From Pseudomonadota bacterium (lineage in GTDB: Bacteria; Pseudomonadota; Gammaproteobacteria; Burkholderiales; REEB80): DNA of 52,344 nt. Each line of letters begins with the position of its first letter. The first letter of the stretch is position 1. Shown piece after piece: positions 14,078 through 43,342 of this stretch. A program made the position numbers and the translations under genes. Below the pieces are notes generated by a model that saw nothing but the letters and a program-made list of their open reading frames with translations, was not told where the DNA came from and ran no database searches. The stretch lies in the NCBI GenBank assembly GCA_018971485.1, contig JAGXAQ010000011.1, positions 1 to 52,344 on the forward strand, written 5' to 3'.

Positions 14078-15985
14078 GTGATTACCTTTGAGCTCATTAA
14101 AAACATAGCCCTTCTGGTTGCCCTGGTGGTCATCTACCCTATTTCTGTGTCCCGCTCCCAGAGCAGCACACTCTCCCACAAACTGCTCTTTGGCGTACTT
14201 TTCGGGCTGACTGCCATATTCGGCATGATGACTCCTGTCCACTATGGACAAGGGGTGATTTTTGACGGCCGCTCTGTCATCCTGTCTGTAGGCGGGCTCA
14301 TTGGCGGGCCTTTCGTTGCCCTCACAAGTGCCTGTATTGCAAGCCTCTACCGGATCCGGCTGGGAGGAGCAGGCGCTTTTGTGGGAGTGGCTGTCATTCT
14401 GGCCTCATCCGCACTGGGGGTCCTGTTTCACTACATCAAAAAACAGTCTGGGAACTATCTGGGGGTCCTCCCCCTGCTTGGATTCGGATTGCTTGTCAAT
14501 CTTGTCATGATGGGGTTTTTCCTGCTCTTACCCCACGATATCGGTTTTCAGGTCATCAACCAGATGGGCTGGAACATCCTGTTGGTCTATACAGCCGCCA
14601 CAGTGCTCATCTCCCTCATGTTTGAAGACTACGAAGAAAAGGACAAGAGCCATCATCACCTGGAGCGACTGGCCTACTATGACTCCCACACCGCGTTACC
14701 CAACCAGACCCTCATGCTTGGCCACCTTGAGCAATGCCTGTCCCCCGGCCAGATTAAGACGGATCAATATGCCTTAATCATCCTCAATCTGGATCGTTTT
14801 AAAAAACTCATTGATGCACGGGGCCATGAATATTCGGAACGCCTGCTGCTCATCGTGGCAAGACGCCTGTCCGAAGTACTCGACAGGGACGATTTTCTGG
14901 CCAAGCTGGCCGGGGATGAATTCACCCTTATCCTGCACACCAGGCCATCCGAACCGGGATCCATCCGCCTGATGGCCCAGAAAATGGCCAGCCGCGTGCA
15001 TGAAATCCTGAAGCTTCCCCTGCAGATGGATACAGAATCCATCAATATTTCCGGAAGCATGGGGATCACCATTTTTCCGCTCAGTGAACACGACAGGCCC
15101 GGCGACATTCTCCAGCGGGCCAACCTGGCCCTGAGCATGGCAAAACATCATGGGGGCAACCAGACCATCGTGTTCAACCCATCCATGACCAACCAGGCTG
15201 AACAGAGTTTCACCATCGGCAATGAACTGCACAAGGGCATTGCGAACCAGGAACTGCGGCTGCACCTGCAATCCCAGTTTGATGCCGCCGGCATCCTGGT
15301 GGGTGCAGAAGCCCTGGTACGCTGGCAACACCCTGAACGGGGCCTTGTTCCACCGGCATCCTTCATCCCGATTGCTGAAGAAACAGATCTCATCGTGGAA
15401 ATCGGGGAATGGGTCCTAACGGAAGCCTGCAGGGTCCTGGCCCGAATCCACCCTATCAATCCCAGCATCAAGATTTCCGTCAATATCAGCCCACGCCAGT
15501 TCCGCCAGGCCGGTTTTACCCGCCTGGTCCAGAAAATCCTGGCAGAAACAGGGGCAAACCCCCGCCGCCTGACGCTGGAAGTGACAGAAAACCTGCTCAT
15601 CAATGATTTTCAGGATATCCTGGCCAAGATGCAGGAACTGGTGTCCTGGGGCATCCGGTTTTCGCTTGACGATTTTGGAACCGGCTATTCCTCACTGGGC
15701 TACCTCAAACGGCTGCCCATACAGGAAATCAAGATTGACCGCTTATTTGTGCAAGAAGCCCCCACCAATCCGGATGATGCCGCCCTGGTTGAATCCATTC
15801 TGGCTGTAGCCCGCCACATGAAACTTGATGTCGTGGCCGAAGGGGTGGAAACCCAGGCCCAGTTCGACTTTCTCAACGCCCGGGCAGACATGTTTCACCA
15901 GGGCTACCTGTTTGACAGGCCGGAAGCATCTTCCAGCTGGCTGCAGCATTATTTCAGCATCAATGATGTCCCTGATCCTTCCTGA
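14078..15985 (+). CDS. LytS-type 5TM sensor with degenerate GGDEF and EAL domains
   Basis: A 635-residue membrane protein. Residues 1-185 form about five or six hydrophobic helices with the pattern of 5TM-LYT sensors (LFGVLFGLTAIFGMM, DGRSVILSVGGLIGGP, RIRLGGAGAFVGVAVIL). The GGDEF domain has AGDEF in place of GGDEF, so synthase activity is doubtful. The EAL domain keeps GAEALVRWQHP, SVNISPRQF, EVTENLL, DDFGTGYSSLGYL, IKIDRLFV and VVAEGVETQ and should be an active cyclic-di-GMP phosphodiesterase. The start is GTG. It stands alone, convergent with the pilus operon, and could set motility or pilus activity through cyclic-di-GMP; that link is inference. Confidence 0.9.
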   Translation: MITFELIKNIALLVALVVIYPISVSRSQSSTLSHKLLFGVLFGLTAIFGMMTPVHYGQGVIFDGRSVILSVGGLIGGPFVALTSACIASLYRIRLGGAGAFVGVAVILASSALGVLFHYIKKQSGNYLGVLPLLGFGLLVNLVMMGFFLLLPHDIGFQVINQMGWNILLVYTAATVLISLMFEDYEEKDKSHHHLERLAYYDSHTALPNQTLMLGHLEQCLSPGQIKTDQYALIILNLDRFKKLIDARGHEYSERLLLIVARRLSEVLDRDDFLAKLAGDEFTLILHTRPSEPGSIRLMAQKMASRVHEILKLPLQMDTESINISGSMGITIFPLSEHDRPGDILQRANLALSMAKHHGGNQTIVFNPSMTNQAEQSFTIGNELHKGIANQELRLHLQSQFDAAGILVGAEALVRWQHPERGLVPPASFIPIAEETDLIVEIGEWVLTEACRVLARIHPINPSIKISVNISPRQFRQAGFTRLVQKILAETGANPRRLTLEVTENLLINDFQDILAKMQELVSWGIRFSLDDFGTGYSSLGYLKRLPIQEIKIDRLFVQEAPTNPDDAALVESILAVARHMKLDVVAEGVETQAQFDFLNARADMFHQGYLFDRPEASSSWLQHYFSINDVPDPS

Positions 15986-16088: not shown

Positions 16089-16616
16089 CTACGGGTGGGT
16101 ATCGGTCTTCACACATCCATAGGCAAGACCCCGCGTCCAGACATAAGACGTCCAGGCATATCCTGGTGCGCTCAGTTCCCCGTCCCAGACCTCATTCATC
16201 ACCTGGCCATTGTCCGGTCGCACATAATCATAAAGAAGCACTATCGCATCATTCGCATCCGCGCATGAAACAGGTGCGGCCGATACAGCCAGCTGTGCCG
16301 GCTGGGTGCTCATGGAGACAAGGCCATAGCTTCCATTGCCAACATAGGTCCCGGAAAATGCCACCTTCCCCCAGGGGACAATAAACCAGGCAAAAGGGGC
16401 ACTGCCCAGCTGGCTCACCCCGGGTCTTGGAGACTTGCTCCAGCTCGAACAGGCGCCCAGATATCCCGTGCAGTCCCACGATGACACAATGACCCAGCCT
16501 CCCGTAACGGGAGATACCCCTTCGACATAGCCAGCATAATTGGTTGCCGCCTCACAGGACAACGCTGCCCGAATCATAAGCCCTGTCAGCAATACCCACC
16601 GGATGGCCCGTTTCAT
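16089..16616 (-). CDS. Secreted protein, paralogue 3 of a tandem family at the end of the pilus operon
   Basis: A 175-residue protein with a signal peptide (MKRAIRWVLLTGLMIRAALS, cleavage near AATNY). The family is not recognised. The mature part begins YAGYVEGVSPVTGGWVI, contains four or five Cys including C-T-G-Y-L-G-A-C, has GKVAFSGTYVGNGSYGLV in the middle, and ends YGCVKTDT. The same landmarks in the same order occur in the two genes upstream, so the three arose by duplication. This copy is the most divergent, with longer loops. It is the last gene of the minus-strand pilus run and is probably exported to the periplasm or cell surface. The longer upstream frame was rejected because the signal peptide begins at 16616. 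Confidence 0.75.
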   Translation of the reverse strand: MKRAIRWVLLTGLMIRAALSCEAATNYAGYVEGVSPVTGGWVIVSSWDCTGYLGACSSWSKSPRPGVSQLGSAPFAWFIVPWGKVAFSGTYVGNGSYGLVSMSTQPAQLAVSAAPVSCADANDAIVLLYDYVRPDNGQVMNEVWDGELSAPGYAWTSYVWTRGLAYGCVKTDTHP

Positions 16617-16641
16617 GTCTTTGCCCTGTTTTCCCTGTCCC

Positions 16642-17130
16642 TTAAGGCAAGAAGGACGAATAGGTATCTGCCTTGACACAGACATACTCATGACCCGCCC
16701 TAACCCAGGCTGTACCGGTATAAACCGCATCCACAGGCTGCGTACTGTCCTGGCGGACATAGCCTTCAACCGGCATCATGGCCTCATCTACCGAACCACA
16801 CTGCACCAGGGTATCAGGCTGCCCCGACTCATCCAGATCATCAGGACCATTCACCTGGTAGCTGCCCTGTCCCAGGGGCAGCCCCGCAAATGAAACATCC
16901 CCGAAAGGGGTGATGTCATACAGACTGGGATAATCTATGCCACGCTCGCACGAGTGCCCGCAATACCGGGTTGAAACAAAGCCCGGGCGCACCAGGATAA
17001 TGGCATAGCCTCCTACGACCCTGGCAAACCCCGGGGAATACCCGTTATAGCCTTCTGCAGCCTTTGCCAATACAGGACACAATCCCATCCAGAGCCACAG
17101 CAGGCCACATGCTTTTATCCCGTTTAACAT
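16642..17130 (-). CDS. Secreted protein, paralogue 2 of the tandem family
   Basis: A 162-residue protein with a signal peptide (MLNGIKACGLLWLWMGLCPV, cleavage near AKA-AEG). It shares with its neighbours the N-terminal Y-x-G-Y-x2-G then VVGGYAII, a central Y-D-I-x2-FGDVSF, LGQGSYQVNG, a Q-C-G before the C-terminal third, and terminal YVCVKADT. Three Cys lie in the mature part's first half and middle, which suggests disulfides. No known domain is recognised. The location among pilus genes suggests a pilus-associated or surface subunit, but nothing in the sequence proves assembly into a pilus, since it lacks a prepilin signal. Confidence 0.75.
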   Translation of the reverse strand: MLNGIKACGLLWLWMGLCPVLAKAAEGYNGYSPGFARVVGGYAIILVRPGFVSTRYCGHSCERGIDYPSLYDITPFGDVSFAGLPLGQGSYQVNGPDDLDESGQPDTLVQCGSVDEAMMPVEGYVRQDSTQPVDAVYTGTAWVRAGHEYVCVKADTYSSFLP

Positions 17131-17158
17131 CCGTTCTCCTCCAGACCTGTCTCAGTCA

Positions 17159-17641
17159 TCAGTTCGTGTCAGTATCAACACAGACATAGCCATGCCGGGA
17201 AGGAACCCATCCGGATCCATCAAACACCCTGTCCATGATTTGCAGGGTATCGGCACGACCGTACCGCGCCAGTACAATCTGGGCTTCATTAGCCCCACAG
17301 GATACAAAAAGCCCGGGGCGACCCGAGTCATCGGTGCCATCGGTTCCCCACACACGATAACTGCCCCCGCCTTCATAGACTCCCGCCTCGTTAAGGGCCA
17401 CATCACCATACAGCAGGATATCGTAGCTTGTGGGCACATGGATGGAAACGCACCCCCTGGAACCACACTGGTAGCGGACGAACCCTGGCGCATGAACGGC
17501 AATGGTGTACCCTCCTGCCACAGGAGAGCCACCTTGCTGATAGCCTCCGTAATCATTCCTTGCCTGAACCGGCACCGGCTGCAGGCCAAGCCGGATGAGC
17601 GCCATCACAACCAGGAAACGAGCTTTCGCCTTCCTATCCAT
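17159..17641 (-). CDS. Secreted protein, paralogue 1 of the tandem family
   Basis: A 160-residue protein; the ATG at 17641 overlaps the end of the preceding gene by eight bases. Signal peptide MDRKAKARFLVVMALIRLGL, cleavage near VQA. The mature protein has YGGYQQGGSPVAGGYTI, C-G-S-R-G-C, SYDILLYGDVAL, GGGSYRVWG, V-S-C-G and terminal YVCVDTDT, so it is clearly homologous to the next two genes. The family is not recognised. Overlap with the upstream gene indicates translation from the same message as the pilus genes. Confidence 0.75.
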   Translation of the reverse strand: MDRKAKARFLVVMALIRLGLQPVPVQARNDYGGYQQGGSPVAGGYTIAVHAPGFVRYQCGSRGCVSIHVPTSYDILLYGDVALNEAGVYEGGGSYRVWGTDGTDDSGRPGLFVSCGANEAQIVLARYGRADTLQIMDRVFDGSGWVPSRHGYVCVDTDTN

Positions 17642-18893
17642 GACATTCCAGTGCCGCCACATAGGTATACCGGTTAGCCGGCAGGCCATTGACCGTGTCA
17701 TGCCGCCAGTTGAATACCTGGCTGGTGGCAAACGGGTCAATGATATTATCAAGATAGGCCTCGCAATCGTTTTCCTGGCCCGCTGACAAGAAAACCGACT
17801 TGCTGAATGGCTGGACTGGCGAAAGCGCTGACGTGCTAAACCGGTTGATCAGGATATGGGCATCACTGCCAGACCGGTAGACATAGCGATCGACATTTTC
17901 CTGAAGCTCATAGCCAATCCGGCCTGTTTCGCTGAATGTCGCCCGCCCGGCAGGATAGATAAAAAACAGGTCCCGGGCCTTTTTCCAGCTTCGGCTGTCC
18001 ACGCTTACCCCAAGCTTTGCCACTTCATCCACACCCCCTTGCCCATTCGGCAATTCGCTCCAGGCAGGCTGCACCTGCTCGACTACATCGACCAGCCCCA
18101 TCATGGCGCCGTATTGATTCACCAGCGTCCTGATGTCCGGAGCATTCCTGGGGCAGCCTGGATGGCTTGACTCATCCATCAGGCACGCAAGACTCCAGCC
18201 TGGCTGGGCTGTAACCCCACCCAGAATACGGGGGGCATCAAATGCACCCCCCGTATCCTTGTGCATCCAGCCCGTCATGGGTTCAAACGAATCATTGACC
18301 ACAATCCAGTCCAGATAACCTGCCCGGGCATAGGCAAACTCCTGGGGCAGCCCGCTCATCACCGCACGGGGCGTATACAGGGCATAAAGGATCGATGGCT
18401 GTTCAGGAATCAATCGTGGATCACCATAAAGGGTACGGCTGTTTTCATCCAGGGCCATGGACCACACCAGATGCAGCGGATGCGGATTGCCTGCAACATT
18501 CACTGTCTCATCATAACTGAACCAGCCAAAAGCAATGCCATGGGAGTGCATGTAGGCGCCCAGTTGCCTAGCCAGAGGCCCGGCCTCATGATCCAGGCTA
18601 AACCGGGCCTCGGCCAGAAGCGTGGCCTCGTTCATGCCATCCGGGTAGGATTGCACCGCTATCCCGCCCAGAAGCTGGGGTTGGGCCAGGATCCGGCCTC
18701 CTGTATCCAGGCTGTAGCCGGACGCCAGTACATCGGCAGAGGCTATCCTGGCAAAAAACGTGGATTGGCCCTGAACAACCACCTGGCTCATCACAAGTGT
18801 CTTGTGGCTCAGGGCCAGTCCATTCGCCCAAACAGATTGCCCTAGCATCAGGCTCAGCACCATAATTCCGCCCCATTCTGCCTTCTTGGGCAT
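17634..18893 (-). CDS. Secreted protein of unknown function in the pilus operon
   Basis: A 419-residue protein with a signal peptide (after MPKKAEWGG, cleavage near VWA-NG). AGGAGG five bases before the ATG sets the start. No family is recognised. The N-terminal half (about 25-240) contains a region with LARQLGAYMHSHGIAFGWFS, YAYARAGYLDWIVV-like aromatic stretches and a stated order of Asp/Glu and Trp that recalls neither a secretin nor a pilin. Cys pairs occur near the middle (ACLMDESSHPGC) and C-terminus. Codons run straight into the three tandem paralogues. It may be an extracellular enzyme or adhesin delivered with the pilus; this is only positional inference. Confidence 0.7.
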   Translation of the reverse strand: MPKKAEWGGIMVLSLMLGQSVWANGLALSHKTLVMSQVVVQGQSTFFARIASADVLASGYSLDTGGRILAQPQLLGGIAVQSYPDGMNEATLLAEARFSLDHEAGPLARQLGAYMHSHGIAFGWFSYDETVNVAGNPHPLHLVWSMALDENSRTLYGDPRLIPEQPSILYALYTPRAVMSGLPQEFAYARAGYLDWIVVNDSFEPMTGWMHKDTGGAFDAPRILGGVTAQPGWSLACLMDESSHPGCPRNAPDIRTLVNQYGAMMGLVDVVEQVQPAWSELPNGQGGVDEVAKLGVSVDSRSWKKARDLFFIYPAGRATFSETGRIGYELQENVDRYVYRSGSDAHILINRFSTSALSPVQPFSKSVFLSAGQENDCEAYLDNIIDPFATSQVFNWRHDTVNGLPANRYTYVAALECHG

Positions 18894-18918
18894 CCTGCCT
18901 CCTTTCTGCGCCACTGGG

Positions 18919-19692
18919 CTAGTGCACCGGGTACACCGGGCGGGGAACCTCTTCTGGCAAAACCGGCAGCAGACGGGATCCTTCCATTCCAGGCGGGGGC
19001 GTAAAAGGTGAACGCGGGGGATGCCTTCCTGAGTGACGGGCTAAAGGCCACCCTATGGTCCTGGAGATAATGGAAGGCCTTGCCTTTAAGCCCAGCCGGC
19101 GGCCTCCGATAGTGACTGAATCAGGCCCCATCACCGTCACAGCCTGGCCTTGGTACAATCCGCCTGTGCGAACAAACCTTGTCACTCCGGAATCAGTCAG
19201 TACAGCAACATTCTGCCCCCTACCCTGGATGATGGCATCAAGGGTTGGCCCCTGATGAGACGGGGTATTCTGAATCAGCTGAGTCTTGGGATTGAACCGA
19301 TCCCGGACCGGTTTTTTTCGCGCCAGATGCAAAAATCCACGAGATGGAGCCAGCCGTTTCCTGCTTCGCCGAAACCTTCTTACCAACGGAGGCTTTTGCA
19401 GCCTTGTCCCATAAGGATTAAGCCCCGCCTGCTTTCTGATTGCAGCTTTTAACTCGGCCTGCCTTGCCTGCTGCTCCAGAATCCGGGTCTGCAGCCGGGC
19501 CCTGTCAAGCAGGCGCTCCTCGGCTTCATAGCCAAGAGGGGTACCCGTCAAGGGATTGATCCTGGATACTCCCTCCACCTTCCGCTGTGCTGACCCTGCC
19601 AGCGCACCGGAAACGGGCTGGGCCCGAAGGGCCACCCACACGGCAGACATCAGGATAACCAGAACCATCTGTTTGAAACAAATCAACATCAT
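18919..19692 (-). CDS. PilP-like type IV pilus biogenesis protein
   Basis: A 257-residue exported protein: an N-terminal hydrophobic signal (about 3-23), a charged coiled-coil region (EAEERLLDRARLQTRILEQQ onward, about 55-90), a basic linker, and a C-terminal beta-rich module about 155-205 (VLTDSGVTRFVRTGGLYQGQ then VTVMGPDSVTIGGRRLGL) with the pattern of PilP-family proteins, which connect the inner-membrane pilus complex to the secretin. A Pro-rich tail follows. The order coiled coil plus compact C-terminal domain is what I rely on; sequence similarity is modest. It sits between the last prepilin and the unknown secreted proteins. Confidence 0.55.
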   Translation of the reverse strand: MMLICFKQMVLVILMSAVWVALRAQPVSGALAGSAQRKVEGVSRINPLTGTPLGYEAEERLLDRARLQTRILEQQARQAELKAAIRKQAGLNPYGTRLQKPPLVRRFRRSRKRLAPSRGFLHLARKKPVRDRFNPKTQLIQNTPSHQGPTLDAIIQGRGQNVAVLTDSGVTRFVRTGGLYQGQAVTVMGPDSVTIGGRRLGLKARPSIISRTIGWPLARHSGRHPPRSPFTPPPGMEGSRLLPVLPEEVPRPVYPVH

Positions 19693-19698: not shown

Positions 19699-20688
19699 TT
19701 AAAACTGGGATACAGCCGTCTCAGCCAGAATCACCCCACCCGGGAGGATCGTCTGGATCCTCGCTGTATAAGGGGCCACAGCCCTGTCCGGCCGGGTATT
19801 GGCCGGTGATCTCACCGCATTGGAACAATTGTCCACTGTCATGACCTGACCATAGGCATCCGTTACATCAGTCCGGCTTAACCCTAACAGGACCTGTGGA
19901 TTGGCCCCATCCGGACCCGTCAGGGGCAGGGGCGCCAGACAGCCGCTTGAGGGCATTGTTCCGCCCTGATCCCATCGACCGGGATTGGGTCCGGTCGATG
20001 CAAAATAGTCAATGGCCACATCCCGGGAAGGATCCATTTCATACCGCGTGGCAAAATAGTCCTCCATGGCCCTAACAATACGGTTCATCCGCAAAACAGT
20101 CAGACGGAAGTGGGCGAGGGCCAGGGCAAAACCATCCACCCGGATACCTGTATCATCTCCGCATAAGAACAGCTGCCCGGTTGCCGCATCCAGATAGGTA
20201 TGACAGCGTCCTGAATCCAGGTGTCCGTTTGCACCTGCGGAAACCAGGGCCACATCATGGTAGTCCAGCTGGACTCCATCCACCCTCTGAAACAGTCGGG
20301 GCGTCACCAGGACACAGAAGGGTTGATGGTAGCCATCCTGATAGAGCGTCGTGGCAGAGCGGCTGGAAAAGGCTGCAACCGGCAAGAAACTGGCTGCCGT
20401 GGACGTGCACCGCCCTGATCCATCCGCAGGCGAAGGCATCACTACCCCCTGCAGAAAATCCAGACGTGCCCCGGCCTGCCCATCCACGCTCAGGGAAGAC
20501 TGGTCATAGGCCGCGCTCAAGGTCCCGGCCAGCTCCCTGAGCCGGGTCTCATTCTCTTCAGCCTGCCTAAAATGTACCCACGGCATAAACGTATTCCCCA
20601 GAACAGTTGTCAGAAGGGCAATAATCATCATGCTCACTGCCAGCTCAAGCAGCGTGAAGCCCCGAAGGGCATGAATCGGTCGGCTCAT
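19699..20688 (-). CDS. Large minor prepilin (PilV-like)
   Basis: A 329-residue prepilin. The short leader ends at Gly before F-T-L-L-E-L-A, with Glu at mature position 5, followed by a hydrophobic helix (about 11-35), the classic class of substrate for a prepilin peptidase. The large Cys-containing C-terminal part (six or more Cys) suggests a tip or adhesive subunit; in R64-type systems PilV plays this role and its C-terminus is varied by a shufflon, but no recombinase or inverted repeats of that sort are seen here. Its ATG overlaps the stop of the ATPase gene (ATGA). Confidence 0.8.
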   Translation of the reverse strand: MSRPIHALRGFTLLELAVSMMIIALLTTVLGNTFMPWVHFRQAEENETRLRELAGTLSAAYDQSSLSVDGQAGARLDFLQGVVMPSPADGSGRCTSTAASFLPVAAFSSRSATTLYQDGYHQPFCVLVTPRLFQRVDGVQLDYHDVALVSAGANGHLDSGRCHTYLDAATGQLFLCGDDTGIRVDGFALALAHFRLTVLRMNRIVRAMEDYFATRYEMDPSRDVAIDYFASTGPNPGRWDQGGTMPSSGCLAPLPLTGPDGANPQVLLGLSRTDVTDAYGQVMTVDNCSNAVRSPANTRPDRAVAPYTARIQTILPGGVILAETAVSQF

Positions 20689-21650
20689 CTTTCTCCAGTC
20701 TGCAACAGGGCCTGCTTTAGTTGTTCACGATCATGGGCCAAACCCTCGGCGGCCTCAGCTGACAACCGCCCTTGCCCAACCGGTTGCCTCAGGATCCAGT
20801 GCTGCATGATTTGACCCTCCTGAGGCCTGATGAGCCATTGGGACAAAATGGCAGTCAGGCTCAAAACCAGAAGATGCCGTGCCTCATCCTGGTCCTGCTG
20901 CGCATAAAAACCCACCACCTGATCAAGAGCCTGCCGGCTGCCGGCTGCATGCAGGCCGGCGAGCACCAGACCCCTGGCATTCACGTCGTACAGGACGGCC
21001 TGCATCATGGCATTTGAGCGGATTTGTCCTGTCACCAGAATACCGGGATCCTCACGCCCTGATCCGGCAAACGCTGCCGCAGGACCCGGGAAGGAATCTT
21101 CCCTCTGTTTTTTCACAACACGACTGCGACGAGAGGGCACCTGGTATTCAACCGGATCCTCCAGGATCAGGACATGGGCATTTCGACTGCGGTTGATATG
21201 GCCCACACCAGCAGTCAGCGTCCTGGATTTACCTGAACCTACAGGACCTGCAACCGGAACCTGCCCCCGGGTCCTGCCAAAAAACCGGAGTGCCTCGTCA
21301 GGCAAACCCGGATCCATCCAGTCCGGAACAACCCGAAAAGCTCGCCTGATCGACAGGCAGGAATAGGCATGAGGGCCATAAACCGACAGATGGCAGCGCA
21401 GGCGAAAGCGCGCCTTGCTCAAGAAAAAATCAAGCCCTGCCTGGCGCAACTGCAGGGTATCGGGCACACCCGTAGAGGCTGCATCCGGAACGTTTGTAAA
21501 ATACCTATCAGTATCAAGCACTTCAAGCATGGTTTTGCCATAATGTTTTAGTTCACTTGGTTCATGCACCCCAATCCGGTCCTGTACCGCCAGATGGATA
21601 TCAGTGACATGAGACTCTTTCAGGATGTCTGTTACCGTGGATTCAGGCAT
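20685..21650 (-). CDS. PilT-like pilus ATPase with altered Walker B
   Basis: A 321-residue cytoplasmic secretion ATPase of the PilT/GspE superfamily. Landmarks: P-loop GPVGSGKS (135-142), EDPVEY Asp box (164-169), a REDPGILVTGQIR Walker B region, the LAGLHAAGS His box and a SLTAILSQWLIRP segment. In active homologues the Walker B ends Gly-Glu-x-Arg; here the Glu is Gln (Q209, codon CAA at 21024-21026, one base from GAA). The His box and P-loop are kept, so nucleotide binding may remain while hydrolysis is reduced. It overlaps the next prepilin gene. R64-type operons have only the PilQ ATPase, so a second ATPase here is unusual; retraction or regulation is possible. Confidence 0.8.
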   Translation of the reverse strand: MPESTVTDILKESHVTDIHLAVQDRIGVHEPSELKHYGKTMLEVLDTDRYFTNVPDAASTGVPDTLQLRQAGLDFFLSKARFRLRCHLSVYGPHAYSCLSIRRAFRVVPDWMDPGLPDEALRFFGRTRGQVPVAGPVGSGKSRTLTAGVGHINRSRNAHVLILEDPVEYQVPSRRSRVVKKQREDSFPGPAAAFAGSGREDPGILVTGQIRSNAMMQAVLYDVNARGLVLAGLHAAGSRQALDQVVGFYAQQDQDEARHLLVLSLTAILSQWLIRPQEGQIMQHWILRQPVGQGRLSAEAAEGLAHDREQLKQALLQTGER

Positions 21651-21660: not shown

Positions 21661-22491
21661 CTACATGGGCTGGGTTGCCACTATCCTGAGCACCCGGTTC
21701 CAGGGGGTCACCGACTGGATGGACAGGCTAAAAGGAGGAGCAGCCCGACTGTCGCCAGCCCCGCCCACTTCAATCTGTCCTCCCCATGCATCCCATTCAT
21801 CCAGCCGGCCCATCCCGGCCTGCCCGGGCAGATCCGTGTCCACCAGCGGCACGGCAAAATTCAGGCAGGCTGGCTGGGTCGAGGCGGCATCGCTGCATCC
21901 TTGTCCGAGAAAATAATTGATGTGCTCCCGATGATCCGCATCGCGCAATTCATCCGACTTGAACATCTCCTCCAGGAAGAGCGCATCCTTTTCAAGAACC
22001 TGGCGGGTCTGTCTTACCTTGGCAAGCTCTATGCCTTGTCCATTCACCAGTGCATAGGCCCTGGCTGATCCGGGCTGAAACTGCCCTGTGGCCGGGTCCA
22101 GCCGAGGCGCGTTTCGTGCTCCGCCAGGAATCCAGACAGCCAGAACATGATAGGCTATCCCGCCTTGCTGTATCCGGTTGCTGGAAGCTGCCATCAGATC
22201 CCATTTCAAGGGCAGCCCCAGCCGGGGCAGAAGACGCTTCATCCCTGCAGGCGCAAGGACACGGTCAATTGCGCCTGCATGATGGATATACCATTGGGTG
22301 AGGCTGTCCTGGACCTGCCTCAGGTAGCCCGCCTGCCTGCTGGCCAGGCGAACCTTGTCCTGATAGGTATCCAGCAGGTTTTCCGCCAGAACCCATGATG
22401 TCACCGCCAGCAGGACCAGGACGAGAAACCCGGACAGGACGAACCCTTGCTGACAAATACCCGTGCGGCAGTTTTTGTGATCAGGTCGCAT
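21661..22491 (-). CDS. Pilin-like protein with N-terminal helix
   Basis: A 276-residue protein with a short basic leader ending Q-Q-G before F-V-L-S-G-F and a hydrophobic helix (about 17-36). The Gly-Phe junction suggests prepilin peptidase cleavage, but Glu at mature position 5 is replaced by Gly, as in GspK/PilX-like tip pilins that lack it. The remainder is soluble with a Cys pair (QGCSDAASTQPAC). It lies between the major prepilin and the PilT-like gene. Assignment as a minor pilin is by position and N-terminus; no exact family is recognised. Confidence 0.65.
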   Translation of the reverse strand: MRPDHKNCRTGICQQGFVLSGFLVLVLLAVTSWVLAENLLDTYQDKVRLASRQAGYLRQVQDSLTQWYIHHAGAIDRVLAPAGMKRLLPRLGLPLKWDLMAASSNRIQQGGIAYHVLAVWIPGGARNAPRLDPATGQFQPGSARAYALVNGQGIELAKVRQTRQVLEKDALFLEEMFKSDELRDADHREHINYFLGQGCSDAASTQPACLNFAVPLVDTDLPGQAGMGRLDEWDAWGGQIEVGGAGDSRAAPPFSLSIQSVTPWNRVLRIVATQPM

Positions 22492-22494: not shown

Positions 22495-23085
22495 CTACTG
22501 CTCCAGGTCAACCAGATAATCGAAGCTGCCGACCGTGGATCCCCCCGATCCTGGAACAGCCCGGCACTTACCCGAGGTAAAATCAGCCGGAATTGTCCTT
22601 GAGCCGGTGCAGTCCTCAATGGCTGCCGTAATCATCGCATCCGGGACATTGTGGGCCCGCAGGAAGTAGGTCGAGCTGAACCCGGGCTGGGATGTATCCC
22701 GTTCCAGGGAAACCGTCACACCGGCAATGATGTTGTCCACCCGGGCTTCCCCTGCTGCATCCACTGGAAAAGGCTTGATATAGGGGCCCTGCCAGGCGGT
22801 ATAGGCCACCCCGCAATATGTGTTGGATGGAATTTCATCCACGCCGGGGTCATAAAGCCCCGCCAGAACGCGGGTATAGCAGTTATTGTCCGATTTCATC
22901 CGGATAAGGGCATCCCCCATCGAATTCATGTAACTATAAAGGGCGACTGCTTTTGATTTATTTCCCGAATGAATAAACAGGATCGATGCAATCAGGATGG
23001 ACAGGATGGAAATGACGACCGCAAGTTCAACCAGCGTAAACCCATCCTGTCCATAACTGCCTCTCGCCTGGCCTGACTTTGCCAT
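22495..23085 (-). CDS. Major type IVb prepilin (PilS-like)
   Basis: A 196-residue prepilin. A 15-residue leader ends at Gly before F-T-L-V-E-L-A-V-V-I-S-I, with Glu at mature position 5 and a 20-residue hydrophobic helix. The globular part has a C-terminal Cys pair (EDCTGS and GKCRAV) forming a D-loop, and further Cys at NNC and TYC. Its position after the PilR-like platform protein matches PilS in R64-type operons. The ATG at 23085 is preferred to an upstream ATG at 23112, which would overlap the preceding gene and lengthen the leader. It is the best candidate for the main pilus subunit. Confidence 0.85.
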   Translation of the reverse strand: MAKSGQARGSYGQDGFTLVELAVVISILSILIASILFIHSGNKSKAVALYSYMNSMGDALIRMKSDNNCYTRVLAGLYDPGVDEIPSNTYCGVAYTAWQGPYIKPFPVDAAGEARVDNIIAGVTVSLERDTSQPGFSSTYFLRAHNVPDAMITAAIEDCTGSRTIPADFTSGKCRAVPGSGGSTVGSFDYLVDLEQ

Positions 23086-23104
23086 ATCGCCCTTTCTGGT
23101 TATG

Positions 23105-24289
23105 CTACACATTGTTCAATGACACACTGACAATCGGGTAATAGGTGGCAAGAAAAAAAAACAGCACCATCGCCCCCATGCCCAGAATGGACAGGATTTT
23201 GGCAAGATCGGTCAATTGCTCGGCCAGCAGCACCACTTCCTCTTCCAGATCCCGTGCCATATCCCGTAACGAAACCGCCAGGCTGCCGCTTTGTTCAGCA
23301 GCCTGGATTCCTGCCACGATAAAATCAGGAAAACCTGATGATTCAACCGCTTCATCCAGATGGATCCCGCCTTGCAGCAAGCGGGACAAACGATAAAATG
23401 CCAGACGGGTCCTGTCATGAAGACTTGCTTCGCCTAGTGTGCTTGCAATCTCGGCAGGCGCAACCGAAGCCTCATGCAGAAGGGCATATCCGGTCCAGAG
23501 TATGGATTGATCGGTTTTGAGCATCAGCTCGCGTGCCTGTGCGAACCGGTTCAATACGGCCCTGAATGCCCCCGTCTGCCCCAGGAAGAAAGCCAGAACA
23601 GGAAGCAGGCCATAACATACGGTAAACAGGCCAGGGTGACGGCCAGCCTCCTGGCTTAACGCAAAAACGCCGGCATCATAAAAAGGGACTTGGGCATGAA
23701 GCGTCTGCATGAATACCAGGGTCTGCGGGAAAAGGTAACGCAGGGCCACATAAAAAAAGGCATACATGAACCCCATCATGAATACTGGCATTTTCAGGAT
23801 CTGGTTCAACCGTCCCTTAAGATGGGCCTCCCGCTCCACTTCCAGTCCTAGCGCCTGAAACACGTCACCGGTTTTTCCGGACAGCCAGGCTGCCCGGATG
23901 ATCATGGCATGCCGGGCTTCAAATCCGGCCATCAGCATAGCCTCGTGTTCTCGCTTCCCGTCCAGGATAAACTGGCGCATCAGGATGACAGCCTGCCTTA
24001 ACCGATCATCCTGGATAAACCCGGCTCCTGCAGCAAGACCTGTTTCCAGTGAGCGGCCCTTCATCAGCCTGCGTCCGGTGACCTTGTAAAAACGGCTCAA
24101 ATCACGACGGTTGAACTGCGTGCGAAACAGGTTACGGACAGAACGGACAAGCTGCAGCCGGACCTGGACTGACTGATAGCCGGCCCGCTTTAACTGGAAG
24201 CAGGCCGCATGGGAGTTCCTGGCAAACAGGACACCCCCCACCCATTGCCGGTGTGACCCCAATGCTGAATATTCAAAGGCCCATTCCAT
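23105..24289 (-). CDS. Type IV pilus inner-membrane platform protein (PilR/GspF family)
   Basis: A 394-residue polytopic membrane protein of the GspF/PilC/PilR family, which anchors the assembly ATPase and pilins. It has two repeated cytoplasmic helical domains (about 60-160 and 265-370, the second with GIQAAEQSGSLAVSLRDMA) and transmembrane helices near 175-205, 225-245 and 370-390. AGGA precedes the ATG at 24289, five bases past the stop of the ATPase gene. It directly follows the PilQ-type ATPase gene, the standard order in R64 thin-pilus operons. The last residues (SVSLNNV) overlap the alternative start of the prepilin gene. Confidence 0.87.
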   Translation of the reverse strand: MEWAFEYSALGSHRQWVGGVLFARNSHAACFQLKRAGYQSVQVRLQLVRSVRNLFRTQFNRRDLSRFYKVTGRRLMKGRSLETGLAAGAGFIQDDRLRQAVILMRQFILDGKREHEAMLMAGFEARHAMIIRAAWLSGKTGDVFQALGLEVEREAHLKGRLNQILKMPVFMMGFMYAFFYVALRYLFPQTLVFMQTLHAQVPFYDAGVFALSQEAGRHPGLFTVCYGLLPVLAFFLGQTGAFRAVLNRFAQARELMLKTDQSILWTGYALLHEASVAPAEIASTLGEASLHDRTRLAFYRLSRLLQGGIHLDEAVESSGFPDFIVAGIQAAEQSGSLAVSLRDMARDLEEEVVLLAEQLTDLAKILSILGMGAMVLFFFLATYYPIVSVSLNNV

Positions 24290-24296
24290 CGCTATC

Positions 24297-26141
24297 CTAT
24301 TCTTCCCGTGCCACACGGATGACTTCGTCTACTGAAACAATCCCTTCTGCGGCCCGCCTTAACCCGCTGGCAAAAAGGGAATGTCCTGCCATGGCTCGGG
24401 CTTCAATCACGGCATGCAGGCCGTCATTCTGCCTCACGAGACTCCTGATCGCAGGAGCATCAAGTGTGTCTTCAATCATGACGCGTCCGCGATAGCCGGT
24501 ATATCTGCACGAAGGGCAGCCAACCGGTCGAAACAGCCTCAATCCTTCTGTCGAAGGATTCCACCAGGGCAAATCGAACTCCTTGAACATGGCGGGACGA
24601 TTCTCCTCTGCCTTGCAAAGCGGGCACAGGCGACGGGGCAGACGCTGGGAAATGATGACCTTGAGGCTGGCCAGATGTGTGTCATCAATCCCCATATCCG
24701 AAAAAGCCTGGATGGCCATGGGTCCATTGGGAACGTGCAAGGTGGTAAATACCAGATGCCCCGTATTGGCTGCATCAAACATGACCTGCGCCACATCCGG
24801 ATCCCGCCTTACCTCCCCGAACAAAATGACACTGGGGGCGCTACGCAACAGGGCATTCAGGGTCTTTCTGGCACCCAGGCCTTCGCAAGCCTCATCCTGA
24901 ACCGGTTCATGCTGCAGCCACAGGCCATGGCGGTATTCAACCGGATTTTCAATCGTCTGGATGGATCGCTCAACCGGGTCAATCAACTGCAGCAGGGCAT
25001 ACTGGGTTGTGGTCTTGCCGCACCCGGTCGGGCCCGTCACGGCAATGATGCCACCAGGCATCTGGATACAGCGTTTGAGCATCCTCGCTGTAGGCAGGCT
25101 AAACCCCAGATGTTCAAACTCGACTTCCGTGCTCTGCCTGTCGAGAATCCGGATGACTGCCTGCTGCTTGCCCCGGGTTTCCATGAGTTCCATCCGGAAC
25201 ATGTAGCGGTGAACCAGGTCCGGATAACGGCCCTTCTCCTCTTCAGTGAAATCAAACAGGCCTTCCTGGGGTTCCCGCCTCAAGGCTTCAGCATTAGAGC
25301 GCTCCCCTATGAGCTTGGTCAGCAGCCGATCCATCAGGCGTCGATCAAGCGTTCTGAAAAGGCTGCCGACATCATTCACTTTCAGGCGAATGATGCCAAC
25401 CAGATCTGAATAGTTCAGATAGACATCCGATGCGCCTGCATAGCAGGCATGACGGATGAGGCCTCCAAGAATATCCTGGATGAGGTTCGGGTAATCTTCC
25501 ACGCACCGGCCCGACTGGGCCTCGGTATACGTGGCAACCAGACGGTCAAACACCTCCTCCGTATCAGCAAAACAGCTCCGGTACACAGCCTGGATCGTAT
25601 TGGGAGAGGCCATTACCAGGACAGGGCTGTCCCGGTGGTAACGGTTGCGGGCCGCAGTTGCATCTTCCGGATCGGAAATGGCGACCTCAAGCCGGTGCTG
25701 CGCGTTGTAGCCTACAGGAACATAGTGCATCAGGTCTTCCGTATCCAGATGGCCAAGGCCTGCCACATCGATCCCATCCACACCGGATGCAGGGAAATAG
25801 TCCATCCGGTGATAGCGGGCGAGAACCTGGGCAAGACATTCAGCCGAGATAAACCCGAAATCACGCATGATGACCTGCAAGGATTCCCCTGTGGCCTCCT
25901 GACGCGCCAGGGCAATGCGGATATGACTGTCTTTTACCCGCATCTGCCTTAAAAGCTGAACCAGCTCCTCCTGATCCATGCAAGGTTCCACCGCGGAACC
26001 CGGGCCGGACTGATTCTTCACCATGCTGTCCTGGCCTTCGGGTCGATGAGCTTCAAAACCAGTAACAACCGGCAGCACGCCCTGTTTTGAAGCCGGATCT
26101 CTTCCGGTCTGTGCCAGTAAGCGAGGACTCGTCTTGGACAT
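24297..26141 (-). CDS. Type IV pilus assembly ATPase (PilQ/GspE family)
   Basis: A 614-residue secretion ATPase that powers pilus extension. The N-terminal third resembles the GspE N-domain. The core shows GPTGCGKTTT (P-loop), IQTIENPVEY, an intact Walker B LFGEVRRDPDVAQ with catalytic Glu, HLVFTTLH His box, and a Cys-x2-Cys pair set (CPLC and CPSC) typical of the GspE/PilB zinc module. The start at 26141 has GGGAG upstream and lies just past the preceding stop; the longer frame to 26204 would overlap that gene. It contrasts with the PilT-like gene at 20685, whose Walker B Glu is lost. Confidence 0.92.
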   Translation of the reverse strand: MSKTSPRLLAQTGRDPASKQGVLPVVTGFEAHRPEGQDSMVKNQSGPGSAVEPCMDQEELVQLLRQMRVKDSHIRIALARQEATGESLQVIMRDFGFISAECLAQVLARYHRMDYFPASGVDGIDVAGLGHLDTEDLMHYVPVGYNAQHRLEVAISDPEDATAARNRYHRDSPVLVMASPNTIQAVYRSCFADTEEVFDRLVATYTEAQSGRCVEDYPNLIQDILGGLIRHACYAGASDVYLNYSDLVGIIRLKVNDVGSLFRTLDRRLMDRLLTKLIGERSNAEALRREPQEGLFDFTEEEKGRYPDLVHRYMFRMELMETRGKQQAVIRILDRQSTEVEFEHLGFSLPTARMLKRCIQMPGGIIAVTGPTGCGKTTTQYALLQLIDPVERSIQTIENPVEYRHGLWLQHEPVQDEACEGLGARKTLNALLRSAPSVILFGEVRRDPDVAQVMFDAANTGHLVFTTLHVPNGPMAIQAFSDMGIDDTHLASLKVIISQRLPRRLCPLCKAEENRPAMFKEFDLPWWNPSTEGLRLFRPVGCPSCRYTGYRGRVMIEDTLDAPAIRSLVRQNDGLHAVIEARAMAGHSLFASGLRRAAEGIVSVDEVIRVAREE

Positions 26142-26145
26142 GAGC

Positions 26146-26718
26146 TTACTCCCTGTTCTCGTGCCGCTGTATCCGGGTCGCAGTGTTACGTCCGAATACG
26201 GCAAGCTTCAAATCAAACTCCTGTTTGGTCTCATTCATGCCAACCAGGGCGACCGGATAGGCATGCAAGGCAGCCAGAAACGCCTTCAGCCCTGTATAAT
26301 CCGAATAGTGCCCCCGAACCTCCAGGCTCACCTGCCCGATGCGTCCATCTGTATCCGGCACCCTGTGCTGCAGAGGTGTAAAAGCCTCCGGATGAGCCGA
26401 GAAATGTCCCCCTGCCAAAGCCTCCACTCCTGCCAGCCTGACTCTATCCCTCATCTGGTTCTGCCTCATCAGGAGCAAGAGGGAGGCTGCAGCCCTTTCC
26501 ACGCTCCTGTTGGCCTCAACCGGCCTTTTCAGGGTGAGCGCCTGCAGCCGGGCCAACAGCGCGCCCAGATGGATCTGCCTGTCCTGCAGCTGCCCTTGTT
26601 GGCGGACAAGATTCATCCTCTCGCTCTGCCACCGGGCATGATAGTCGGCACTAGCCATGCACAAGAGCCCCAAAAGAAGAACCCCGATACGGGCAATTGA
26701 AATCCTGCTCAATTTCAT
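26146..26718 (-). CDS. Pilus accessory membrane protein (PilO/GspM-like topology)
   Basis: A 190-residue bitopic protein: a transmembrane helix (about 8-24), a coiled coil (about 30-60), and a periplasmic domain with the alternating alpha-beta pattern of PilO/GspM ferredoxin-like folds (VSLEVRGHYSDYTGLKAFL, about 132-150). In R64 order this place is taken by PilP, but the sequence looks more like PilO. GGAG lies six bases before the ATG, which supports a start inside the preceding gene and a 68-base overlap; a shorter start at 26658 would remove the membrane helix. Confidence 0.65.
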   Translation of the reverse strand: MKLSRISIARIGVLLLGLLCMASADYHARWQSERMNLVRQQGQLQDRQIHLGALLARLQALTLKRPVEANRSVERAAASLLLLMRQNQMRDRVRLAGVEALAGGHFSAHPEAFTPLQHRVPDTDGRIGQVSLEVRGHYSDYTGLKAFLAALHAYPVALVGMNETKQEFDLKLAVFGRNTATRIQRHENRE

Positions 26719-28084
26719 TCATGTCTCCACTTACAAGCATCCCCAGAGCGTCACACCCTTCGGGTGGCGACTCCTCCAGGACCGGCAGGAGTCGATGCAG
26801 CCCGGTTACTGAAAATATCCCGAAACGATTCATCCTGTTGTCCCTGGACCCAATGAGGGGCAACTCAACCCTAAGGCGGACAGACTGCAGGTCTGCCCTG
26901 ATGGACACAGTCGTTCCCGGTCGCCAGACGGCCTGTGCCTCATGGAAAATAATGTCTTCCTTCAGGCTGGCTTGCCAGGCAAATACTTTCGGATAGCGTT
27001 CAATCAAGGCCCCAAGCCTTACCTGTTCAGTGTGGATGGATTGCCCCAGATCCTGATTGGCCTGCAGGGCCGAATGAAGCTCAAACCAGGATGCGGCTGC
27101 CCAGATCACCATCATGGCGCTCAATCCGGCCAGGCTCCATCTGCCAGCCCGCTCAACCTGCTTCAGATCCAGCCCGTTCCATTCAGGTTGACCCGGATAG
27201 GCTGGCAACGCCTGTGCCTGCTCAATCAGGGCTACGGCATCCAGGATAGTCTGCTGCTGCAGCTTATGCCTGGCTTTCCAGGTGCGATAGATCTCTTCCC
27301 GGTGAGGGGGGTTGATGGAGACCACCCACTCAGCCTCGCTCACCCCGGGCTTGAGCGCATAAACCATGACCAGATGCACGCCATCCATGCTACCGAGCTC
27401 AATTCCAACGGCACATGCTTTTTTCACAGGGCCTACCTTCATGTCGAGGCAGGCGACACCTGGCACCAGCCGGGCAGGAAAACGGCTCAGGCGGCCAACG
27501 TGCGTGGCATAAACCACTCCGTATTTCCGGCTCAAATTGACTACCCGGACTGGCTCCAGAGACACCAGTTCACGATAGGCCATCGATTTGGCCTTCTGGG
27601 TGGACAACGGCCTGTCAACCAGGAAACGGTGATCCTGGCGGGTAAAGCAGATGATACGTATCCCCGGAACCAGATCCTGTTCATCCAGCGCATGAAGCTC
27701 ATCCTGGCTCACCTGCCAGTACTGCAGGCGCCCCTTTTCCACTTCCACCTGGATATAGACAGGTTCCACTGCGCCCGGGTTGACCTGCGCCCTACTCCGG
27801 CTGTTTTTAGTGAACCCTGCCCATATCGGGCCTTTTACCCTTCCTGCCTTCATCCAGGCTAAAACCGCCTTAAGCCATCCACCCCATGGATGGAGCCTGC
27901 CGGCTACATTTTCCGGCCTAAGAACAGCAGGCTCCTCCTGAGGCAGGCCTGGCTGATGCGGCGTGTCTTCAGGCTCATGTCCGGGTGCTGCCAGCTGGGA
28001 CTCCAGGCGTTCCTCCTCAAACAGGATGTGCCCGGTTGGCCCCTGTCCTTCATTTAGCCCTGACAGGCGGCTCCACAGACCCAT
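26651..28084 (-). CDS. PilO-type pilin accessory protein (GspL/PilM-N-like)
   Basis: A 477-residue protein in the position of R64 PilO. A long cytoplasmic portion (about 100-300) carries beta-rich stretches of an actin-like scaffold seen in GspL/PilM proteins, followed by a transmembrane helix (about 309-333), a short coiled coil and a periplasmic domain. It probably forms the inner-membrane frame with the protein at 26146. Its start codon overlaps the secretin stop by one base (TGATG). Similarity is by topology and order; no single motif is diagnostic. Confidence 0.65.
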   Translation of the reverse strand: MGLWSRLSGLNEGQGPTGHILFEEERLESQLAAPGHEPEDTPHQPGLPQEEPAVLRPENVAGRLHPWGGWLKAVLAWMKAGRVKGPIWAGFTKNSRSRAQVNPGAVEPVYIQVEVEKGRLQYWQVSQDELHALDEQDLVPGIRIICFTRQDHRFLVDRPLSTQKAKSMAYRELVSLEPVRVVNLSRKYGVVYATHVGRLSRFPARLVPGVACLDMKVGPVKKACAVGIELGSMDGVHLVMVYALKPGVSEAEWVVSINPPHREEIYRTWKARHKLQQQTILDAVALIEQAQALPAYPGQPEWNGLDLKQVERAGRWSLAGLSAMMVIWAAASWFELHSALQANQDLGQSIHTEQVRLGALIERYPKVFAWQASLKEDIIFHEAQAVWRPGTTVSIRADLQSVRLRVELPLIGSRDNRMNRFGIFSVTGLHRLLPVLEESPPEGCDALGMLVSGDMNEIEQDFNCPYRGSSFGALVHG

Positions 28085-29628
28085 CAGACCGCCTCCATAA
28101 AAAGAGGGTTAAAATGAGGAGCGGGTATAATCTGCACATGCAGCAGGATGATGACTTCCCGATGATCATCCCTTTCATTCTGGCCCATGGCCGTCAAGGA
28201 GCCCAGAAAGGGAATCCGGCCCAAGCCTGGCAGGGCATCCCGAGTGGCCTCATGACTCAGGGATCGGATTCCACCCAGGATCAGGGTCTTTCCGGACTCA
28301 TCCATCACCTGCATCAAGGATTCCTTGGTCGCCTGGGTCGGGGCCGTGATGGTATTGCCCTCAAGGTTAAAGGTCGAAAAAGACTCCACCGTGGACAGGA
28401 CCGGGACCACCGTCAACTGAACCTCGTTCCGGTTCAGGATATCCGGCTGGATTGACAAGGAAATACCATCGGTCACATAGCTGGCTGCCCCACTGGTGAT
28501 GGATGTCCCGACCGTCCCGGTAACGGCATTGGAAATGGACCCCAGGTAAGGGACCTGTGTACCGTCAAAAATGACAGCCGGGGTATGATTCATGGCCGTC
28601 ACCTGGGGCTGGGAAATAATCTTGAGCGTCGTTACTTTCTGCAGGGCATGAAGGATGCCCTGAATACTGGCGCTCGTCATGCTGACTGCCAGAACCGGGC
28701 TGGCCACGCTACTGGCATCGCTTAAAGACACACTGTTCCGGCCTAGAACCTTCGACCAGTCAATCCCGTACTCGAATTCGCTTCCCAAATCAACTTCAAT
28801 CACTGAAGCCTGAATTTCCACCCGACGCAGCGCATCCTTGGTAAAACGGGCCAGAAAATGATTGATTCGCTCAAGTGCCAGGGCATCCGCCTGTACCGAT
28901 ATCAAACCCAGCTGGGGCATGACATGCACCTGTGCATGGGTTCCAGCCATCTGGCCTATGAACCGGCCTAGCCCGCGTGCATCCGTGCTGTAGCCCCCCT
29001 GAACCGAAAAGTTGGCCTTAAGCCCGGATCCGGCCCCCATCCCTCCGGTGTTCATCAGGGCGGATACATCCGTTGACGGAAAAACAGCCGGGCCCGCACC
29101 AGGATAGGCATCCGAATTGACCGGATTTCCCCCGACATCATAGCGCGCCGTCAACTGCTGCATGACATTCAGGGGCAAATGAAACGTATCCGTGGCAGTC
29201 GGCGTGACAACTGCCGTTTTAAGGGCCGGATCAAATACCATGGCATAGCCTGCGGCCAGGGCAACATGACGCATGGCAGCCTGGACTGACTGATGATGGA
29301 TGGTCACGGTAACCGCCTTGTGCACATTGACCCCCTGCATCAGGGACAATGACCAGCCTGATTGATGACCAAGTCCTGCCAGAAGGGCATAAAAGGGGGC
29401 ACCATCAGCCTGGATGGAAATGGGCCCATGATCAGGAGAATAGCGGACATAGCGGGCCAGAACATAAGACCGGTGGGAGAGAATGCTTAACGATACGGGC
29501 CGGGAACCTGGCTTCACCTGTTTTAGCAAGGAACGCACCTCGTTTTGCACCTGCTCCCGGACTGGAGTCATGCATCCTGCCAGGCTACATATCACGACAG
29601 CCATGACAGTGATGAAACGAAAAGTCAT
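28084..29628 (-). CDS. Outer-membrane secretin lipoprotein (PilN-like)
   Basis: A 514-residue secretin forming the outer-membrane pore through which the pilus passes. It starts with a lipoprotein signal (MTFRFITVMAVVICSLAGC, lipid on C19), as in R64 PilN. The middle has N-domains (about 150-300) and the C-terminal half has the secretin core: LKIISQPQVTAMNHTPAVI, VPYL, DGISLSIQPDIL, VQLTVVPVLS, and GKTLILGGIRS. The length is standard for PilN. It begins a chain of overlapping genes and is followed by the PilO-like gene. Confidence 0.9.
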   Translation of the reverse strand: MTFRFITVMAVVICSLAGCMTPVREQVQNEVRSLLKQVKPGSRPVSLSILSHRSYVLARYVRYSPDHGPISIQADGAPFYALLAGLGHQSGWSLSLMQGVNVHKAVTVTIHHQSVQAAMRHVALAAGYAMVFDPALKTAVVTPTATDTFHLPLNVMQQLTARYDVGGNPVNSDAYPGAGPAVFPSTDVSALMNTGGMGAGSGLKANFSVQGGYSTDARGLGRFIGQMAGTHAQVHVMPQLGLISVQADALALERINHFLARFTKDALRRVEIQASVIEVDLGSEFEYGIDWSKVLGRNSVSLSDASSVASPVLAVSMTSASIQGILHALQKVTTLKIISQPQVTAMNHTPAVIFDGTQVPYLGSISNAVTGTVGTSITSGAASYVTDGISLSIQPDILNRNEVQLTVVPVLSTVESFSTFNLEGNTITAPTQATKESLMQVMDESGKTLILGGIRSLSHEATRDALPGLGRIPFLGSLTAMGQNERDDHREVIILLHVQIIPAPHFNPLFMEAV

Positions 29629-30896: not shown

Positions 30897-32189
30897 TCAA
30901 TTGGAGCGATAAGGTGCTAAATGCAGATCCTGGCGAACAAACAGGTTGAACCGATGACCCGGTCGAAGCGTAATGGTTGGGGCAATCGACAGGTTGCGAT
31001 CCAGCATGGAGTGGGTTGTCTGGACCAGAACAGCTCCAGCCGCATCGGTCGAGGTCCCGGCACCACTAACAAGGGTCTGTGGTTCAGCAGGGTTCCCATT
31101 CACCGCATGGGCTATCTCGGCTATCACCATCCCACTACCGAATATGGTCCAGAAATGGGTCCTGACCTCATCCTTCAATCCTGCTGCACCCTCATTATCC
31201 ACAGCTGGCAATCCAGACAGAGCAACGCTCGTTCCATTCGGAAAAACCAGTCTTGAGAACACGCTCATGATCCGTTCCTGGCCAGCGTAAACCTCATTGT
31301 CATAGGATCCGACCAGAAGGGATCCGGCCGGAATAAGCAATACATCTCCGGTGACTGAATCATAGACATTTTCCGAAACACGGGCTTCGATCGGACCAGG
31401 CAGATCGGAATCCACCCGGGTCACCAGGACGGCCGGCACATAACTGCCTTCCAGCAGGGCATACCCTTGATCGGCAGGTACGGCATCAAGCTGCGGCAAG
31501 GCATGGGTTCCCTTGGGGGGGTGTTCTTTCGACACCAGCCATCTGTTCTCCTCCTGGCTTCTATCCTGGGACCCGGGGAAAAGTGCCTCCCCCTGATGGT
31601 GCACCTGTGCTGCCTTAATCGGCTGCAAGGAAAATCCAGGAGCGGCAAGTGGTGCTGCAACCGCCTGGCCTGCCCGGGTTTGAGGTAAAAAGGATGGAGA
31701 GACCACCAGAGGGGACAATACCAGGATCCGGCTGGCACGAATCATCTGATGACGATGCAGGCGGGCTACTGTTGAGGCAGCCTTGTCATCAAATGGCTTT
31801 AGGGCAGCCAGGCCGGTATCCTGATTAAGGCTGACCGGGTAGGCCCGCATCACATCATGGCCCTGCTTTATCTGCCCGGCTTCTGAAAGGGGGGCTGCCA
31901 GCGTCCGGCCAGAGGCAGGCGGGCCTGCATGAACCTGTTTCTGGGCTGCCAGCACCGATTCAAAACTGGGCAGAAAGGAAGGATTGGCAATGGCGGTACG
32001 ATTGATTTCAGCCTGGGCCCGGGTTTGTTCCAGCGCATGGCTCTTACGCTTCATCACCCCCTGATACAGGATCATGGGGGTGAGCACACCCACCACTACC
32101 GCCACGATCCAGATCTGGGCATGGCGTCGGACATGGCCCCTGAAAGCGGGTTTCTGGGGAACCGTCAGATCAGCCTCTTCTTCTACCAT
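30897..32189 (-). CDS. trbI: Type IV secretion protein TrbI/VirB10
   Basis: A 430-residue protein that spans the envelope and senses energy for the T4SS core complex. A short cytoplasmic N-terminus precedes one transmembrane helix (about 28-48), then a long Pro/Ala-rich periplasmic linker and the VirB10 beta-barrel (about 240-400) with ARVSENVYDSVTGDVLLIPAG, LLVGSYDNEVYAGQERIM, LVFPNGTSVALSG and the antenna region FWTIFGSGMVIAEIAHAV. The start overlaps the end of trbG by seven bases. The final stretch (PGHRFNLFVRQDLHLAPY) is the usual VirB10 ending. The length is normal. Confidence 0.92.
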   Translation of the reverse strand: MVEEEADLTVPQKPAFRGHVRRHAQIWIVAVVVGVLTPMILYQGVMKRKSHALEQTRAQAEINRTAIANPSFLPSFESVLAAQKQVHAGPPASGRTLAAPLSEAGQIKQGHDVMRAYPVSLNQDTGLAALKPFDDKAASTVARLHRHQMIRASRILVLSPLVVSPSFLPQTRAGQAVAAPLAAPGFSLQPIKAAQVHHQGEALFPGSQDRSQEENRWLVSKEHPPKGTHALPQLDAVPADQGYALLEGSYVPAVLVTRVDSDLPGPIEARVSENVYDSVTGDVLLIPAGSLLVGSYDNEVYAGQERIMSVFSRLVFPNGTSVALSGLPAVDNEGAAGLKDEVRTHFWTIFGSGMVIAEIAHAVNGNPAEPQTLVSGAGTSTDAAGAVLVQTTHSMLDRNLSIAPTITLRPGHRFNLFVRQDLHLAPYRSN

Positions 32190-33702: not shown

Positions 33703-33789
33703 ACGGTATTCCCCTGTTTTTTTATTCAAGACTGCCTGCCATTAAACCGGTACAAGCAAAAAAATACGCCAGCAAAATACAGGATGAAA

Positions 33790-38497: not shown

Positions 38498-38678
38498 CTT
38501 GTCCTCCATGCCATGCCTAAAGAGCGAGCTGATACCTTAACAGCAGACAACCCATTGACCAAAAAGATAAACTGGCTTTCAGCCTAACACATTTTGCTTT
38601 TAGTGTCACCTGAAAACGGATCAGGCGAGAAACAAGGCATGACCCTATTGAACTTTGCCACCTTACACGGATTCATCA

Positions 38679-43330: not shown

Positions 43331-43342
43331 CAAACCTGTCTC

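Follow-up and report, generated by a model that had tools for sequence, protein, structure and literature searches.

What do three neighbouring, related genes for exported proteins contribute to the pilus operon in which they lie? The question is raised by a window of 52,344 nt, i.e. the whole stretch of DNA analysed (contig JAGXAQ010000011.1 of assembly GCA_018971485.1, Pseudomonadota bacterium; Burkholderiales; REEB80), in which an earlier note had described three tandem paralogues of an unrecognised secreted family at 16089, 16642 and 17159, and had proposed them as alternative surface or tip modules, a non-recombinational counterpart of a PilV shufflon. All three genes were confirmed at these coordinates; they lie on the minus strand, with C transcribed first, then B and A:

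17159-17641, minus strand: member C, 160 aa; Sec-type signal peptide, then RNDYGGYQQG..., four Cys; orthologue L004:9989-10459
16642-17130, minus strand: member B, 162 aa; signal peptide, then AEGYNGYSPG..., four Cys; orthologue L004:10492-10965
16089-16616, minus strand: member A, 175 aa; signal peptide, then ATNYAGYVEG..., four Cys, longer loops; orthologue L004:10998-11531

The paralogy of A, B and C is far above chance, with 43% identity between B and C (blastp, E 1e-31), 31% between A and either of the others (E ~1e-13), and z-scores of 17–42 relative to shuffled sequences. Every motif quoted in the earlier note was found in all three proteins, i.e. Y-x-G-Y-x2-G (YAGYVEG in A, YNGYSPG in B, YGGYQQG in C), the V-x-G-G-(Y/W) core (VTGGW, VVGGY and VAGGY, respectively), the central strand (GKVAF, GDVSF, GDVAL), G-x-G-S-Y (GNGSY, GQGSY, GGGSY) and the C-terminal motif (CVKTDT, CVKADT, CVDTDT). 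Signal peptides were judged by eye, and looked typical in all, from a basic start, a hydrophobic stretch and an invariant Ala before the predicted cut. As dN/dS ratios (YN00) were saturated for most genes, differences per codon position were used instead; between the two species of the genus, position 3 changes the most, and A, B and C are therefore regarded as real genes.

No significant match was obtained for A, B or C against Pfam, NCBIfam, PHROGs or PDB sequences, and neither N_methyl nor a class III prepilin signal was found in them. The description as an unrecognised secreted family was thus borne out and, as judged from sequence, the three proteins and their relatives constitute a new protein family. 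In nine of nine members, the mature protein has exactly four Cys in two pairs, which suggests two disulphides. Equally invariant are an aromatic residue (Tyr/Phe) at position 4 of the mature protein, a G-Y after it at positions 6-7 or 8-9, and a Tyr at mature position 7 or 9; the V-x-G-G-(Y/W) core comes after this N-terminal G-Y, and the proteins end in C-(V/A)-x-(T/A)-D-T. The calculated pI of the six members of this genus is 4.2–4.9. Structure prediction, which the earlier note had listed as a check, was run but gave no confident fold: AlphaFold2 (six sequences) reached a pLDDT of 41 for the full length and 49 for the mature protein, both models being unreliable and the latter made mostly of strands. 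Foldseek with this better model returned nothing at E below 0.1, and a profile of the nine sequences matched no chain among solved structures at E up to 5.

The triplet follows directly after the gene of an exported protein, here called P4, and thereby closes a pilus operon, as had been claimed. Member C and the 3′-end of P4 share 8 bases, and the intergenic spaces after that measure 28 and 25 bases. Such spacing fits a single operon that ends in the triplet; the family genes are closely spaced and co-directional with the pilus genes, and the next gene after them (14078-15985, plus strand) is convergent. The surrounding cluster is of a type that combines a VirB-T4SS with a type IVb-like pilus:

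17634-18914, minus strand: P4, exported, 426 aa; conserved end of this type of pilus cluster, lacking the C-terminal tail of most homologues
18919-19692, minus strand: exported protein, a conserved component of the pilus cluster; may contain a PilP/GspC-like HR segment (by eye)
19699-20688, minus strand: long minor prepilin, N_methyl, 329 aa
20685-21650, minus strand: PilT-like ATPase
21661-22491, minus strand: conserved pilus-cluster protein with a hydrophobic segment at its N-terminus
22495-23112, minus strand: PilS-like major prepilin
23105-24316, minus strand: PilR-like platform protein (T2SSF)
24297-26204, minus strand: PilQ-like assembly ATPase (T2SSE)
26146-26718, minus strand: protein in the PilP position (gene order only; no Pfam match)
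26651-28084, minus strand: protein in the PilO position (gene order only; no Pfam match)
28084-29628, minus strand: secretin (PilN-like)
30897-33729, minus strand: VirB10, VirB9 (CagX) and VirB8 of the linked T4SS
39179-40726, minus strand: homologue of the gene found next after P4 (or after the family member) in other lineages, here called the 39179-type gene
42293-48376, minus strand: VirB6, VirB5-position, VirB4, VirB3, VirB2 and VirB11-like T4SS genes

The relaxase PF03432 was absent in both genomes of the genus. Genes for a TraI_2 (MOBH-type) relaxase and a TraD-like coupling protein were present in the same genome as the window, on contig C23 (G000, L065:176-3531), apparently as part of another (integrative) mobile element.

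Over 1,600 genomes were scanned for the family, including 399 of the order, 398 of the phylum and 369 of the class, and full-length relatives were detected in two lineages only, i.e. one genus-mate and three genomes of another order. The genus-mate (JAGWIG010000013.1) carries three copies in the order C, B, A after the equivalent P4. The class scan added a single full-length relative, from another family (E 8e-13), and two further genomes from the order of that relative gave E-values of 3e-15 and 4e-15; each of these three genomes has a single copy. The rest of the order and phylum genomes lacked the family, and no relatives were found in viral contigs, plasmids or phages. Weak matches in three additional genomes (G028, G314 and G522; E 0.007–0.08) were partial and stop-containing, and were rejected.

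In the second order, the cluster consists of T4SS genes, secretin, pil genes, P4, one family member and the 39179-type gene, and the T4SS and pil genes have the same order as in the window; virB4 to virB10 were seen in one genome (G1105), and the fetched stretch of the other two starts at VirB10 or just after it. In all five genomes with full-length members, the member or members directly follow P4. Homologues scattered in unrelated contexts, named in the earlier note as evidence against a pilus link, were looked for and did not occur, and the profile search thus upheld the association with pilus loci. The link of the family to the pilus cluster is strong, the five loci representing only two lineages, and with the same operon slot in every case and no scattered homologues, the family is probably dedicated to the pilus machine. 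The proteins might, conversely, be periplasmic chaperones, or serve envelope protection or exclusion, and merely share the operon with the pilus genes; the missing domain match leaves room for such a role, which is nevertheless unlikely when the slot has been kept in two orders and a search of over 1,600 genomes turned up the family nowhere else.

Recipient or surface choice by conjugation-linked type IV pili is known mainly from PilV shufflons. Three tandem paralogues at the end of an operon, in a slot that matches the variable P4 tail of other loci, could be read as alternative tip modules with selectable specificity, in effect a PilV shufflon that does not recombine. The comparison between species speaks otherwise. 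In a tree, the copies pair as A/A′, B/B′ and C/C′ across the two species of the genus with support of 95–100; a FastTree tree of nine sequences separates the second lineage on a long branch. The one-to-one grouping places the triplication before the split of these two species and, most likely, it took place after the separation of the genus from the other order. Orthologue identities of 66% (A), 56% (B) and 56% (C) are similar to those of the pilus genes (P4 55%, minor prepilin 62%, PilR 57%), so that divergence is not raised. Given this one-to-one orthology and pilus-like identity, the copies have been kept as three fixed parts; they are separately maintained and not a fast-changing repertoire.

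Components of a shufflon were also looked for. An Rci-type tyrosine recombinase gene is not adjacent, since none of the eight matches to PF00589 in the genome lies on the contig of the window; the best match to Shufflon_N (PF04917) in the genome, on another contig, scored 16.3 bits against a cut-off of 27.5; and no recurring inverted repeat resembling recombination sites or invertible segments was present at the triplet, the direct repeats there being diverged stretches of the paralogues. In position, the triplet resembles PilV of R64/TP114-type conjugative thin pili, as both lie at the operon end of a conjugation-type type IVb pilus. In R64/TP114, variability resides in the C-terminus of PilV (PMC9045228), and here in the P4 tail or in separate genes. 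Moreover, unlike in the PilV/Rci system, A, B and C are fixed, orthologous copies, each complete with its own signal peptide and none associated with a prepilin signal, Shufflon_N, a recombinase or invertible cassettes. The proposal of alternative modules was hence not sustained, and is considered very unlikely.

For P4 itself, no domain match was obtained. P4 homologues were identified in 23 of the 399 sampled genomes of the order, and they close the same pilus cluster on plasmids of Robbsia and Limnohabitans, where the gene 3′ of P4 is a homologue of the 39179-type gene. The hypothetical proteins of these plasmids and of a Variovorax plasmid share with P4 of the window a conserved core. The pilus operon order is the same in Robbsia and Limnohabitans; the Variovorax plasmid P4, in contrast to that of the window, sits outside a pilus cluster. 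The P4 of the Robbsia, Limnohabitans and Variovorax plasmids have C-terminal tails of 124–328 residues and no accompanying family member, whereas P4 of the window is short, with 35 residues after the I(D/N)PF motif (34 in the genus-mate). P4 of the second lineage (three genomes, 471–474 aa) likewise has a 35-residue tail, and the range over the five family-bearing loci is 426–474 aa. At loci without the family, 20 of the 23 complete P4 homologues measured have tails of 124–466 residues, which belong to several unrelated types; the three others (G078, G369 and G165) are short-tailed yet have no family member. A short P4 is therefore found at five of five family-bearing loci vs three of 23 loci without the family, and the second pilus locus of the genus-mate has a tailed P4 and no member. 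In one homologue of 886 aa (L037, G233:C10), the tail is composed of repeated, Cys-rich YTCLNGGxxSGSTC-like units that surround a beta-rich insert.

Homology of the family to the variable P4 tails was considered and rejected, since the best hmmsearch E-values were 0.06–0.07 among 20 sequences and the hhalign probability was below 1%. Replacement of the tail by a separate family is positional only, as no sequence homology was found, and the evidence for it is suggestive because the five loci represent just two lineages. The short P4 at all of these loci could also mean that A, B and C are drifting relics of a tail cut off by a stop codon. This is scarcely credible: besides sharing no homology with the tails, the proteins have their own signal peptides and four conserved Cys, an excess of codon-position-3 changes, and one-to-one conservation between species. 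A further reading, in which the pilus tip would be completed in trans by a secreted family replacing the variable contact domain usually fused to P4, with three specialised paralogues of one genus jointly capping a conjugation-type pilus as a heteromer, is regarded as improbable.

A precedent for secreted proteins encoded with a pilus is given by TcpF (Vibrio cholerae TCP) and CofJ (ETEC CFA/III), in which an aromatic residue close to the start of the mature protein is indispensable; it docks into a trimeric minor pilin, with the protein being released or held at the tip and the globular parts differing among species (PMC9565799). The family resembles these proteins in a putative Sec signal (typical by eye), in being encoded in a type IV pilus operon next to a minor pilin gene, in the conserved aromatic near the mature N-terminus, which may be comparable in kind, and in a globular part specific to the species. 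It differs from them in showing no detectable sequence relation and in having three paralogues in place of one; TcpF/CofJ clusters are not known to have a linked VirB T4SS, unlike the cluster in the window. By this analogy, a pilus-secreted or tip-bound role for A, B and C is plausible. If they were TcpF/CofJ-type proteins in the strict sense, they would ride on a trimeric minor pilin, leave through the secretin and act away from the pilus, and the long minor prepilin gene in the same operon, the Sec-type signal and the aromatic pair at mature positions 4 and 7–9 in all nine members would fit. However, the nine-sequence profile matched neither TcpF nor CofJ at E 5, the aromatic motif may merely belong to the fold, and the similarity of the minor prepilin to known pilins is confined to the N-terminal helix, so that a TcpB/CofB-type trimer is purely hypothetical; we consider this strict form possible though rather unlikely.

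The explanation favoured, to which we give about even weight, is that A, B and C are dedicated exported accessory subunits of the VirB-T4SS-linked type IVb-like pilus, working with P4. Each protein would be exported by Sec, lose its signal peptide and fold in the periplasm into a mostly beta domain with two disulphides. The family would act on the outer side of the machine in concert with P4 and the minor pilin, supplying in trans the surface or recipient contact that elsewhere the variable tail of P4 makes in cis; a surface or tip location is plausible. Hypothetically, the proteins might exit by way of the secretin while attached to the minor pilin by their N-terminal aromatic motif, in the manner of TcpF and CofJ. 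One copy would be the ancestral state, and one lineage would have triplicated it and given each copy a fixed role, possibly in a hetero-oligomer.

The arrangement is an unusual layout of a known kind of machine. A widespread pilus cluster of Burkholderiales ends in secreted P4, whose tail differs by lineage. In two orders, a separate secreted family stands where the tail is missing, which offers a comparative handle on the outermost part of the machine. Two families are thereby named, P4 and that of A, B and C, for neither of which a family model or a solved relative was found.

Several further features of the cluster were recorded. The PilT-like ATPase (20685-21650) has an intact Walker A and reads DPGILVTGQIRS vs DPNILMIGEIRT in the genus-mate (Walker B Glu to Gln); with 321 aa vs 366 aa and only 44% identity between the two, it is possibly a weakened or decaying retraction motor. 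A DsbB gene (38655-39182, plus strand), which may serve disulphide formation in the exported proteins, sits between the two parts of the T4SS cluster, and the genus-mate has kept it nearby. The product of 39179-40726 is an exported protein of 515 aa with no domain match that accompanies P4 in all lineages, its gene having shifted into the virB cluster in this genus. Two plasmids of one Robbsia andropogonis strain, p3 (L019) and p1 (L021), encode identical pilus operon proteins (by accession) except for the last; this 39179-type protein is 89% identical between p3 and p1, with the differences located in its second half, and is a candidate specificity or exclusion determinant.
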